Assembly: GCA_000721275.1 (NCBI GenBank)
Contig: JOFO01000005.1
Span: forward strand, 168,340-232,339
DNA from: Microtetraspora glauca
GTDB taxonomy: Bacteria; Actinomycetota; Actinomycetes; Streptomycetales; Streptomycetaceae
Length of the DNA stretch: 64,000 bases
Reading direction: 5' to 3'
Shown here: piece by piece, positions 13,320-17,197 of the stretch
Layout: each line of letters opens with the position of its first letter
Position numbering within the stretch: the stretch's first letter is position 1
Translations under genes and position numbers: made by a program
The notes under the pieces: model-generated
The model's input: only the letters and a program-made list of their open reading frames with translations
Databases searched by the model: none
Told to the model about the DNA's origin: nothing

Positions 13320-13694
13320 CTACAGCTCCAGGTCCGCCTCGATGCGCTTGAGCTGGTGCCGGGCCATGGCCAGGTTCGCCCTGCCCTTGTCCAGGACCAT
13401 GTACAGGAACAGGCCGTTGCCGCCCCGGCTCTTGATCAGCCGGATCAGGTGGTACTGGCTGTCCAGCGTGATCAGCATGTCCTCGATGCCGTCGTTGATC
13501 CCCAGCATCTCCATCGTGCGGATCTTCGCCCGGACCACGTCGGTGTTGCCTGCCGCCGCGACCGTCAGGTCGAGGTCCTTGCTCCCGCCGAGCGTGCCCA
13601 GGGCCATGCCGCTCGTGTAATCGACCAGCGCCACCCCCACACTGCCCTCGATCGACGTCATCGCCTCTTTCAGAGACGTCTCCACACTCGCCAT
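13320..13694 (-). CDS. Roadblock/LC7 domain protein (orphan)
   Basis: This 124-residue protein fits the roadblock/LC7 (MglB-like) fold, with the stretches GVALVDYTSGMALGTLGG, GIEDMLITLDSQYHLIRL and NGLFLYMVLDKGRANLAMAR. Such proteins regulate small Ras-like GTPases; in Streptomyces they usually occur in conservons with a sensor kinase, a DUF742 protein and a GTPase. None of those partners is beside it, so this is a solitary copy. The ATG at 13694 has GGGAG upstream. Confidence 0.88.
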   Translation of the reverse strand: MASVETSLKEAMTSIEGSVGVALVDYTSGMALGTLGGSKDLDLTVAAAGNTDVVRAKIRTMEMLGINDGIEDMLITLDSQYHLIRLIKSRGGNGLFLYMVLDKGRANLAMARHQLKRIEADLEL

Positions 13695-13919
13695 CTGTAG
13701 GTGCTCCCTCGGTACTCGACGGCCCGGCACGGCGACGCGTCCGCGCCCGGGCCGGGCGGTGATCACGGACGTCCCCCACTAGACACCAAGTGAGCCGCCC
13801 GCGGGGGGCTTTCGCCGGAAGACGATGCCGCGGGCATAGGACGGCACGCCGTCGCCGCGCCCCGCGCGGACCCGGACCCACCCGGGCGGGGAACGGCTCC
13901 GCCGTCCTATCGTGTGCCG

Positions 13920-14588: not shown

Positions 14589-14677
14589 GCTTCAGGCCGG
14601 CGGCGGCCGAAGGGCGTTGTCAGTGGTGCCCGCTAGTTTCGGAGGCGTTCCAGAGGACGTTCCGACAGGGGGCTTCG

Positions 14678-17197
14678 ATGACGCACGACCAGACGGGCAC
14701 CGCGCTGCGGGTGGTACTGACGGATGTCAGCACGGCGGTGGTGGCGGCGTGGCGCGCCGCCTTCGCCGACGTGCCCGGCATCGAGATCCGGCGGGGCTCG
14801 ATCCTCGACGCCGACGTCGACGCGTGGGTCACGCCGACGAACGCGGCGGGACGGATGGACGGCGGCGTCGACGCGGCGATCAAGCGGCACCTCGGCGCCG
14901 GGATCCAGCTGCGGGTGCGGCGGGCGATCGAGGACCGGTTCGGCGGGACCATGCCCGTCGGCAGCGCGGTGTGCGTCCCGTCGGGGGCGACCGTGCCGCG
15001 CTTCGTCATCTCGACGCCGACCATGGTCGCCTCCTCGCAGAACGTGAGCGACACGCTCAACGTGGCCAAGGCCTGCGCCGCCGCCTTCCAGGCCGTCCAC
15101 CGGCAGAACCGCAAGGCACCGGGCAGCATCCGCTCCGTCGCGCTCGTCGGGATGGGCGCCCGCACCGGCCGGGTGCCGGCCCGGGTCTGCGCCAACCTGA
15201 TGTGGACCGGCTACACGCTCTTCCACGACCACTGGTTCGAGGACGACGACGAGCTGCGCGCCACCATCACCGCCCAGCTCGCGGGCATCGAGCAGACACC
15301 GCACACGACCCGGGTACGGATCACCCCGCCCCAGGGGGCACCGGCCAAAGGAGCACCGGCCAAAGGAGCGTCGGCCAAAGGGGATCCGGCCAAAGGAGTA
15401 CCGGACGGGGGAGTTCTGAGCGGCAACGCTTCCTCCGCGGCTGAACCGGGCCCGCAGCCGCAGCCGATCCAGAATCCGGCGCACCCCGCACCCTCCTCCG
15501 ACGCCGCAGGTACGACCCCCGGGAGTTCCCCCGCCATGAGCGACGCGACCGCGCCCTCCACCTCCTCGCCCGCTCCCCAGCCCGACCCGAACGACCCCCT
15601 CGCCCTCGCCGAGCTGTTCACCGGCGGCGGCGAGCCGTGGCTTCCGCTCCTCAAGCCCGTCATCGAGGCCCGCCCGGACGCCCCCCAGTTCATCGGGCCG
15701 GGCCGCAGCCCGCAGGTCGTCCCGGTCCGCGAGCTCACCTTCCAGGCGCTCAAGCCCCACCCGCCGCACAAGTGGAAGGTCGTCGTCTTCGGGCAGAACC
15801 CCTACCCGCGGCCGGAGAGCGCCACCGGCATCGCCATGTTCGACAACACGTTCAACGACTGGAAGGACAGCCAGTTCGGACGGGTCGTCAGCATCCGCTG
15901 CCTCATCAAGGCGGCGGCGATGTGGAAGTACGGCATCGCCAAGAAGACGCCCATCGCCGACGTCCGCGCCCTGCTGAAGGAGCGCGAGACCGTGCAGCCG
16001 CCCGAGTGGTTCCAGGCCATGCTCACCCAGGGCGTCCTGCTCCTCAACGCCTCGCTGACCGCCAGCGCCGACGGTGCGATGGCCACCGACCAGCACACCG
16101 GCTTCTGGCGCCCCGTCGCCGAGCGGATCGCCGAGGAGATCCTGCGCGCCAAGCAGGACGCGGAGGACCCCGAGGACCGGGGCGTCGTCTTCGCCTGGTG
16201 GGGCGCGCACGCCCGCAGCCTGAAGCGGGTCGTGCAGCGGCTGGAGAAGAAGTACCCGGGCGTCGAGGTCCGCCACCTGGACCACGCCAACCCGGCCGCC
16301 CAGGGCGACATCTTCTGCGACGGCGACCACCTCGCCACGGTCAACGACGCCCTGCTGTCCCTCGGCGCCGACCCGGTCGACTGGCTGCCGAGCAAGGGAT
16401 GGAACCAGCCCCCGGCGGGCGCCGGCACGGGCGCGGCCGGCGGATCCGGCGGGCCGGACGCCGATGTCGCCGCCCGGATGGGCGCCTTCATCGCCTCCAC
16501 GATGGAGCTCCACCAGCTGTACCTGGAGCGCCTGACCAGCGTCCGCGACGAGGGCCACGTCCTGCCGCCGCTGACCGGTGTGTTCGACACCCCGCTGATG
16601 CCGTTCGAGGACGCCGTCGGCCCCGTCACCAAGGTGCTGCGGGGCCTCGGCGGCCACATCGACCGGTCCCGCGAGTTCGGCAAGCGGCGCGCGGACGAGC
16701 AGGCCGGCGCCGGACTCTCCGCCGACGCCATCGCCGCCCTGTACCTCTACACCTGCGAGTCCGGCTTCTACCGGAACATCAACGCCGTCCTCCGCTCCCC
16801 GGACCGCGCCCGGGTGGTCCCGTACCTGCCGTACCTGCGGCTGCTCTTCGACGCGGTGGAGGCCCTGCCGGCCCGCACCGCACCGCTGTGGCGCGGCGTC
16901 GCGCTCGACCTGCGCGGCCAGTACCCGGTCGGCGAGACGGTCACCTGGTGGGGCGTCTCCTCCTGCACCTCCGAACTCGGCGTCGCCCGCTCCTTCCTCG
17001 GCAGCCGGGGCAAGCGGACCCTCTTCGAGGTGACGCCGGCCCGCGCCGTCGGCATCCGCAGCTTCTCCGCCTTCACCGGCGAGGAGGAGTACATCCTCGC
17101 CCCCGGGACCCAGCTGGAGGTCACCGACGTGAAGGCCGAACGCGGCGGCCTGTGCACGGTGAAGCTCAGGGAGGTGGACACCCGCCTGGTCTCCTGA
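14678..17197 (+). CDS. Macro domain - uracil-DNA glycosylase - ADP-ribosyltransferase fusion
   Basis: This 839-residue protein starts at an ATG behind AGGGGG. Residues 1 to about 215 are a macro (ADP-ribose-binding) domain with TPTNAAGRMDGGVDAAI (Asn55, Gly62-Asp65). A disordered linker with AxAKG repeats follows. From about 310 to 570 comes a family 1-like uracil-DNA glycosylase: GQNPYP (372-377, Asn in place of the catalytic Asp of GQDPYH), GVLLLN (Asn457, uracil recognition), VFAWWGAHA, and His536 in DHANP. After a Gly-rich linker, about 600-839 is an ADP-ribosyltransferase of the R-S-E type: Arg739 in LWRGV, SSCTS (761-765), and Glu802-x-Glu804 in GEEEYILAP. There is no signal peptide. 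NAD-dependent modification plus ADP-ribose recognition on DNA is inferred. Confidence 0.88.
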   Translation: MTHDQTGTALRVVLTDVSTAVVAAWRAAFADVPGIEIRRGSILDADVDAWVTPTNAAGRMDGGVDAAIKRHLGAGIQLRVRRAIEDRFGGTMPVGSAVCVPSGATVPRFVISTPTMVASSQNVSDTLNVAKACAAAFQAVHRQNRKAPGSIRSVALVGMGARTGRVPARVCANLMWTGYTLFHDHWFEDDDELRATITAQLAGIEQTPHTTRVRITPPQGAPAKGAPAKGASAKGDPAKGVPDGGVLSGNASSAAEPGPQPQPIQNPAHPAPSSDAAGTTPGSSPAMSDATAPSTSSPAPQPDPNDPLALAELFTGGGEPWLPLLKPVIEARPDAPQFIGPGRSPQVVPVRELTFQALKPHPPHKWKVVVFGQNPYPRPESATGIAMFDNTFNDWKDSQFGRVVSIRCLIKAAAMWKYGIAKKTPIADVRALLKERETVQPPEWFQAMLTQGVLLLNASLTASADGAMATDQHTGFWRPVAERIAEEILRAKQDAEDPEDRGVVFAWWGAHARSLKRVVQRLEKKYPGVEVRHLDHANPAAQGDIFCDGDHLATVNDALLSLGADPVDWLPSKGWNQPPAGAGTGAAGGSGGPDADVAARMGAFIASTMELHQLYLERLTSVRDEGHVLPPLTGVFDTPLMPFEDAVGPVTKVLRGLGGHIDRSREFGKRRADEQAGAGLSADAIAALYLYTCESGFYRNINAVLRSPDRARVVPYLPYLRLLFDAVEALPARTAPLWRGVALDLRGQYPVGETVTWWGVSSCTSELGVARSFLGSRGKRTLFEVTPARAVGIRSFSAFTGEEEYILAPGTQLEVTDVKAERGGLCTVKLREVDTRLVS
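15338..15397 (+). repeat. Four tandem 15-bp units in the interdomain linker
   Basis: Four copies of a 15-bp unit related to GCACCGGCCAAAGGA encode APAKG, APAKG, ASAKG and DPAKG (residues 221-240), and a degenerate fifth follows. The array joins the macro domain to the Pro/Ser-rich linker before the glycosylase domain. Its lysines make it a basic, flexible tether. Copy number could vary between strains. Confidence 0.85.

Follow-up and report, generated by a model that had tools for sequence, protein, structure and literature searches.

A macro domain, a uracil-DNA glycosylase fold and an ADP-ribosyltransferase in one Microtetraspora glauca protein: a candidate DNA-damage-induced ADP-ribosylation device

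Signalling DNA damage by ADP-ribosylation is characteristic of eukaryotes, whose PARP1/PARG-type system uses an H-Y-E ADP-ribosyltransferase (ART) and poly-ADP-ribose. In bacteria, DarT/DarG (and DarT-NADAR) couple an ART to a macrodomain partner in a nucleic-acid context. Streptomyces coelicolor has SCO6735, a macrodomain hydrolase with a RecA-NDp promoter, reported to be UV-inducible and described, in the available text of the papers on it, as TARG1/ALC1-like and linked to DNA damage (PMC5087735, PMC9411070, PMC11833690). Here we describe a gene that joins a macro domain, a family-1-like uracil-DNA glycosylase (UDG) fold and an R-S-E ART in a single 839-residue frame (Table 1). It lies on contig JOFO01000005.1 of Microtetraspora glauca, in the 64,000-nucleotide stretch analysed (positions 168,340 to 232,339, forward strand; "the window" below means this whole stretch). 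We put the probability at roughly 0.42 that, as its sequence suggests, this macro-UDG-ART protein is a lesion-directed ADP-ribosylation device, induced by DNA damage and equipped with its own macro partner. This reading is favoured because a damage-type promoter motif, an intact ART and a disarmed UDG fold occur together. Its main rival is a toxin-antitoxin role, ahead of two weaker alternatives, an ART that modifies DNA and a UDG that is still active.

Scanning named genomes yielded 207 relatives; the locus analyses used the best 80 (81 copies with that of the window). Pfam, profile and structural matches agree with the first-pass annotation of this DNA on the domain content and order: macro, UDG and ART in one 839-residue chain. 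The ART belongs to Pfam family PF01129, and its R-S-(E/Q)xE fold was recognized by Pfam, alignment and structural match. ART and UDG residue counts here and below refer to rows of alignment A1 with letters at the given position; the ART Arg and second Ser are invariant (48/48 rows), as are both Glu residues of the ExE motif (47/47). The best structural match of the ART is ART2.2, which we take to be an arginine ART; toxin ARTs such as 6drh also match. The fold and the ExE motif thus point to protein arginine rather than DNA as the probable target.

The central module shares its fold and most of motifs A and B with family 1 uracil-DNA glycosylases (nearest PDB entry 5x3g, Nitratifractor UNG). 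The motif-A Tyr (40/41 rows), the pocket Asn (56/58) and the motif-B His (47/56) are largely kept, and the window protein retains all three as Tyr376, Asn457 and the mostly conserved His536. Unlike family 1 enzymes, which have the catalytic Asp of GQDPYH, the window protein has Asn, and 39 of 40 usable rows lack the Asp. The position holds Asn in 29 rows, Ser in 6, Ala in 3, and Thr, Cys and Asp in one each; one Ser row (P0307), aligned by chance at motif A, was dropped, and with it the count is 40 of 41. The sole Asp row, P0242, is an outside UDG 26-27% identical to the query. The genome of the window carries a separate ung with GQDPYH behind the same promoter motif. The suggestion that the UDG part is a normal uracil-removing enzyme therefore finds no support, given the loss of the Asp; a single literature search turned up no paper giving an activity value for an Asp-to-Asn family 1 UDG. 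From the residue counts, selection keeps the ART chemistry and the UDG pocket and not the UDG catalytic Asp, and on the best reading the UDG fold would serve as a DNA reader and the ART as an active writer.

The promoter motif also points to DNA damage. A promoter consensus, tTGTCRgtg-8nt-TannnT, has been published (PMC5656591, in part), and this motif, named RecA-NDp, is used by PafBC (PMC6789036, likewise in part). The motif ahead of the window gene matches it. In 71 of 79 copies its strict form is found no more than 130 nt ahead of the macro gene, with one other occurrence in 1,626,832 bp on both strands, in line with the likely DNA-damage link of the first-pass annotation. Among the eight copies without the strict motif, L047 has just 33 nt upstream and the other seven have weaker forms (11 to 14 of 17 positions). 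In Embleya and Nonomuraea, the form TTGTCGGTG-N8-TATNNT precedes the macro gene. The genome of the window has 14 motif matches, one of them the window's own, versus 0 for a mirrored control, and the motif precedes recA, ruvC and the canonical ung. Ten downstream proteins were assigned by Pfam to RecA, RuvC, UDG and TerD, with six lacking a match (L082, L092 and L093 were left out of this check). Pfam-less proteins directly downstream of such motifs in this genome (L089:1572-2471, L090:156-1493, L094:1570-1893, L083:1530-2894) are candidates for unknown members of the DNA-damage regulon.

The macro part scores 41.1 bits against the Pfam Macro gathering threshold of 22. Asn55, Gly62, Gly63 and Asp65 are invariant in 29 aligned macro rows, and we take this N..GG.D pattern to be that of the catalytic loop of MacroD enzymes. 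In the PDB the macro profile is nearest to macroH2A1.1 (best match 7ny6, 5e-4). This part could be a reader. Macro hydrolases are described as acting on Asp/Glu esters, phosphate, thymidine or 2'-OH links (PMC7050489 and PMC11833690, as far as their available text goes).

Domain-wise tblastn on the 80 loci and the window sorted the 81 copies into 29 in one frame, 27 with the macro gene followed by UDG-ART in the +1 frame (tandem), 23 divergent, in which macro lies immediately upstream of UDG-ART but on the other strand, and 2 cut by a contig end before macro. One of the one-frame copies, L025, is tandem and in frame with a stop between the parts, so true fusions number 28, that of the window included. 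Macro adjoins UDG-ART in all 79 copies whose contig reaches far enough, across several layouts, which supports the functional tie between macro and ART proposed earlier. Embleya and Nonomuraea records have the divergent layout, and another Streptomyces plasmid record is fused. The window fusion is not an assembly error, since the 207 relatives occur in named genomes; a chimera or misassembled junction, the case named in the first-pass annotation as fatal to its proposal, is ruled out by the fused order in 27 other loci of named genomes.

In a tree, the window copy is nested within a tandem clade (sets of 5 and 8 rows, support 99/89 and 100/100) and is thus a derived fusion. The fused state needs 8 changes, 5 of them forced by well-supported branches, pointing to repeated in-frame fusions; L025 was counted as fused, and these changes may include one that is not a fusion. 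In seven tandem-fused pairs compared, the linkers are 2 apart in length modulo 3, which follows from how the classes are defined, and L033 and L002 align closely across the +1 site.

The tandem copies share a candidate programmed +1 frameshift site. Their macro frame stops within the region that matches the window linker (alignment with L019 and L021), and in 20 of 27 it ends with UCC UUU CGY NNN UGA. UUU CGY occurs in 22, exact UCC UUU CGU in 10 and UCC_UUU_CGC in 10 more. TTT is the codon at the slip position in 23 copies (TTC, CCC, TCC and CTG in the remaining four); the preceding codon is TCC in 21, and the following one CGC in 13 and CGT in 10. Elsewhere in their macro and UDG-ART frames, TTT accounts for 8 of 737 Phe codons (Fisher p 4e-36, with relatives treated as independent). 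Across the tandem linkers, the UDG-ART frame has 0 stops in 1264 codons, 973 of them ahead of any in-frame ATG, versus 34 and 13 in the other two frames. The spacing from macro stop to UDG match takes 13 lengths and a single phase in 27/27 copies, unlike the 23 divergent copies, of which 6, 8 and 9 fall in the three phases. A search with the shift-site pattern found six further genomes of the genus (6/199), all +1 with stop-free linkers, two of which carry macro DNA identical to loci already in the set. The conserved site and open downstream frame are present in tandem relatives only; the window copy is in frame and lacks the site. Sequencing error as the source of the layout is ruled out by 27 copies all being +1. 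An AAAGG..CCTTT hairpin was rejected as the general reason for the conserved TTT because the L048-type clade and L040 keep TTT without the 5' arm (judged by eye).

UUU_Ynn is described as prone to +1 shifting in bacteria (review PMC5009743, in part), and the influenza A PA-X site covered there, UCC_UUU_CGU, has the same 9-base core as 10 of the 27 tandem relatives. Unlike PA-X, the tandem site is bacterial, would join two domains and is absent from the window copy; it is a candidate shift read from sequence. No paper describing such a Streptomyces frameshift was found in the open-access literature, and "macro" and "ADP-ribos" are absent from the available main text of the GeneTack survey of prokaryotic frameshifts (PMC3711429).

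In the device as we envisage it, DNA damage would lead PafBC to switch the gene on. The UDG module would hold flipped-out, uracil or abasic sites in DNA while cleaving them inefficiently at most, bringing the ART to the lesion, where it would use NAD to mono-ADP-ribosylate arginines of proteins; the macro module would read or remove the mark and so limit the reaction. In separate-frame lineages, a +1 ribosomal frameshift at UCC_UUU_CGY would produce macro-UDG-ART fusion in a fixed proportion alongside free macro, and in the window lineage the fusion would have become obligate. Lesion binding, an ART and a macro-type reader or eraser would then be common to this device and the PARP1/PARG-type system, and WWE domains occur in both. 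The differences are that the ART here is R-S-E (ART2.2-like), the lesion reader would be a UDG fold and mono-ADP-ribose is expected. It is possible, and we suggest it tentatively, that this is a bacterial counterpart of PARP signalling, in which a PafBC-induced, disarmed UDG aims an arginine ART, macro reads or erases the mark, and a PA-X-like frameshift sets the writer-to-eraser ratio in many species; the reader-writer core would be common to other phyla and algae, possibly with WWE. If so, the combination of lesion reader, intact ART and macro partner behind a damage-type promoter could be tested directly in culturable Streptomyces, a large, automatically annotated family would gain a function, and a UDG fold would have turned from enzyme to reader. 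A cellular bacterial gene would also be using the influenza PA-X +1 shift core, with natural fused and divergent versions as controls.

Several observations weigh against this device. We know of no macro-domain hydrolase that acts on arginine, so the macro part may not erase the mark of the ART. Presence is patchy, at least 20 of 199 genomes of the genus carrying the family, which is more what one expects of an accessory or defence gene than of core signalling. Few divergent copies show a damage-type motif on the UDG-ART side, so UDG-ART itself may lack induction there. According to an initial search reported elsewhere, S. venezuelae seems not to conserve the PafBC motif of M. smegmatis (PMC9380542). 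The frameshift is also open to objection: no downstream RNA structure was found (mean z +0.49); 4 of 27 tandem copies (L020, L022, L026, L034), all near the window copy, lack TTT at the site; and codon-position bias in the linker ahead of the ATG is weak (GC 0.735/0.734/0.80 versus 0.687/0.497/0.943 in the macro domain). An in-frame ATG is available to UDG-ART in 19 of 27 tandem copies, with a possible GTG start in the others inspected, and common descent with triplet-repeat indels may account for part of the kept phase.

Two further observations concern the motif. It is present in 21/21 Streptomyces genomes, that of the window included, and the mirrored control in none, which contrasts with the S. 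venezuelae report. In some divergent copies (L035, L076) the intergenic region holds a second, weaker damage-promoter-like motif facing UDG-ART.

The strongest alternative, which we nevertheless consider somewhat doubtful, is a toxin-antitoxin or abortive device in which UDG-ART would stop growth in badly damaged or infected cells and macro would be the antitoxin, made in excess where its gene is separate or frameshift-limited. Macro and ART genes are paired whether fused, in tandem or divergent, which suits it, as would a frameshift that leaves more free macro than fusion, but both parts lie in one chain in 28 of 81 copies, which is unusual for a releasable antitoxin. Patchy distribution is in its favour, whereas no neighbour family, macro-overlapping open reading frames (ORFs) aside, occurs in more than 11 of 81 loci, and the promoter motif is one common to repair genes. 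Its ART fold matches include the toxin ART 6drh, yet no PADLOC model matches the window protein. Among ten neighbours, three do match, as Csa3 and weakly DpdD (an ArsR-type regulator), mad2 (a methyltransferase) and mad1 (a TetR-type regulator), and these look like general helix-turn-helix and methyltransferase similarity, so that membership of a known phage-defence system, raised earlier, finds no support. Nor does the protein belong to DarTG: the DarT family is absent among Pfam hits up to E 1 (ART, Macro, Macro_2, DUF6213). In contrast to DarT/DarG, it has a PF01129 ART with R-S-ExE, a UDG-fold module, a DNA-damage promoter motif and fused or other layouts.

For the tandem copies, it is unlikely that no frameshift occurs and that macro and UDG-ART are initiated separately in one operon. 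Besides the ATG and GTG codons and the missing RNA structure already mentioned, GGGAG-like sites lie upstream of the UDG-ART start in sequences inspected, and in 23/23 divergent copies an ATG or GTG precedes the UDG match by 13-16 codons. However, neither codon occurs within 38 codons ahead of that match in L009, L013 and L015, which are fused, and separate starts sit poorly with a phase held in 27/27 copies over 13 spacer lengths, the stop-free +1 frame and the near-exclusive TTT.

It is quite unlikely that the ART modifies DNA, with the UDG flipping a base or holding an abasic site, the ART adding ADP-ribose and macro removing it as DarG and SCO6735 do for thymidine. The UDG fold with its pocket residues fits this, and Streptomyces has a macrodomain hydrolase for DNA-linked ADP-ribose in SCO6735 (PMC9411070, available text), although neither SCO6735 nor DarG is named among the 16 PDB matches of the macro profile up to E 0.1. 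The best ART match being ART2.2 also argues against a DNA target. The motif is ExE and not the QxE that pierisin-type guanine ARTs carry, and a single-sequence search reached 5m31, presumably a DarG-type entry, only at 0.98. Least probable is a UDG that still works as a glycosylase through Asn, making a base-excision enzyme tied to ADP-ribose signalling: SMUG1/MUG enzymes work with Asn, which is found in the window and 29 of 40 usable rows alongside the Tyr and Asn pocket residues, but in 10 of those 40 another residue (Ser, Ala, Thr or Cys) takes its place and the genome of the window already has a canonical ung.

Table 1. Mapped features of the macro-UDG-ART locus (window coordinates).
Feature	Position	Strand	Remarks
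Macro-UDG-ART fusion gene	14678..17197	+	839 residues plus stop
RecA-NDp/PafBC-type promoter motif TTGTCAGTG-N8-TAGTTT	14617..14639	+	sequence fits published consensus
Macro domain (M), residues 1-210	14678..15307	+	Pfam Macro 2e-10; phrog_2613 7.9e-33
Macro-domain stretch TPTNAAGRMDGGVD	14831-14872	+	within M
Pro/Ala/Gly-rich linker, predicted disordered	15308..15592	+	model pLDDT <50, residues 221-299
Window counterpart of L019 +1 site	15428..15445	+	low-complexity, approximate alignment; no TTT CGY, frame open
Candidate internal start for UDG-ART alone, ATG (MSDAT), GGGAG upstream	15536..15538	+	sole in-frame ATG/GTG in window linker
UDG-fold domain, residues 306-573	15593..16396	+	profile and structural matches
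UDG motif A GQNPYPR; Asn374 replaces catalytic Asp	15791..15811	+	low model confidence at motif A
UDG motif B HANPAA (His536)	16283..16300	+	His in 47/56 rows
ART domain	16544..17194	+	structural match, residues 623-839
ART catalytic-site Arg739 (LWRG)	16892..16894	+	48/48 rows
ART Ser762 (SSCTS)	16961..16963	+	48/48 rows
ART ExE motif, Glu802 and Glu804	17081..17089	+	both Glu 47/47 rows

A protein search returned 1070 proteins at E<=1e-3 among 7997 scored; among the 120 of these 1070 matches listed, all have both Pfam domains, and those with a named source are from Streptomyces, except one labelled Actinobacteria. An exact DNA pattern for FGQNPYPR was found in 17 of the 199 genus genomes, that of the window included, and the shift-site pattern adds three. 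The resulting prevalence is a lower bound from DNA patterns, three of the six shift-site genomes being absent from the 17 motif-A genomes. The claim that no described protein has this domain order stands in that no paper describing the architecture was found in the open-access literature; the protein is not unique, with at least 207 relatives in named genomes. The main text of PMC9503650 contains neither uracil, UDG nor glycosylase, and the words glycosylase and operon are absent from the available main texts of the SCO6735 papers PMC5087735 and PMC9411070.

Records labelled Planctomycetota, Acidobacteria and Sandaracinaceae contain UDG-ART or UDG-like relatives whose own chain lacks a macro part. 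Others come from algal or protist sources: Gracilaria, Prymnesium, an MMETSP transcript and two neighbouring symbB gene models, which we take to be Symbiodinium. Several of the relatives from outside Actinomycetota are fragments, and bin contamination is possible for metagenome-assembled records. Two proteins, P0181 and P0182, have a WWE domain ahead of the UDG-like part (1.6e-8 and 4.4e-9); their motif A reads GQCPYP and GQNSYP.

No conserved operon partners were found in the 81 loci with the crude ORF caller used for neighbour clustering; on the basis of coordinates, the two largest clusters (40 and 36 loci) were assigned to the macro gene and its antisense ORFs. Around the window gene lie genes for a methyltransferase, regulators and metabolic enzymes. 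A 148-residue frame without a Pfam match lies at 13323-13766 (-), and 5 of 81 loci have, close to the gene, a member of a cluster that apparently corresponds to this protein.

Spread by plasmids was rejected, one of 43 plasmid records with a match covering at least 80% of the query, as was spread by phages: no relative was found in viral contigs, and 16 phage records match the macro part only, below 60% identity. In phage records H10-H15 the macro domains are about 32% identical; H12-H15 carry the annotation of Salmonella phage tail fibre or macro proteins, and phrog_14717 is a tail family.

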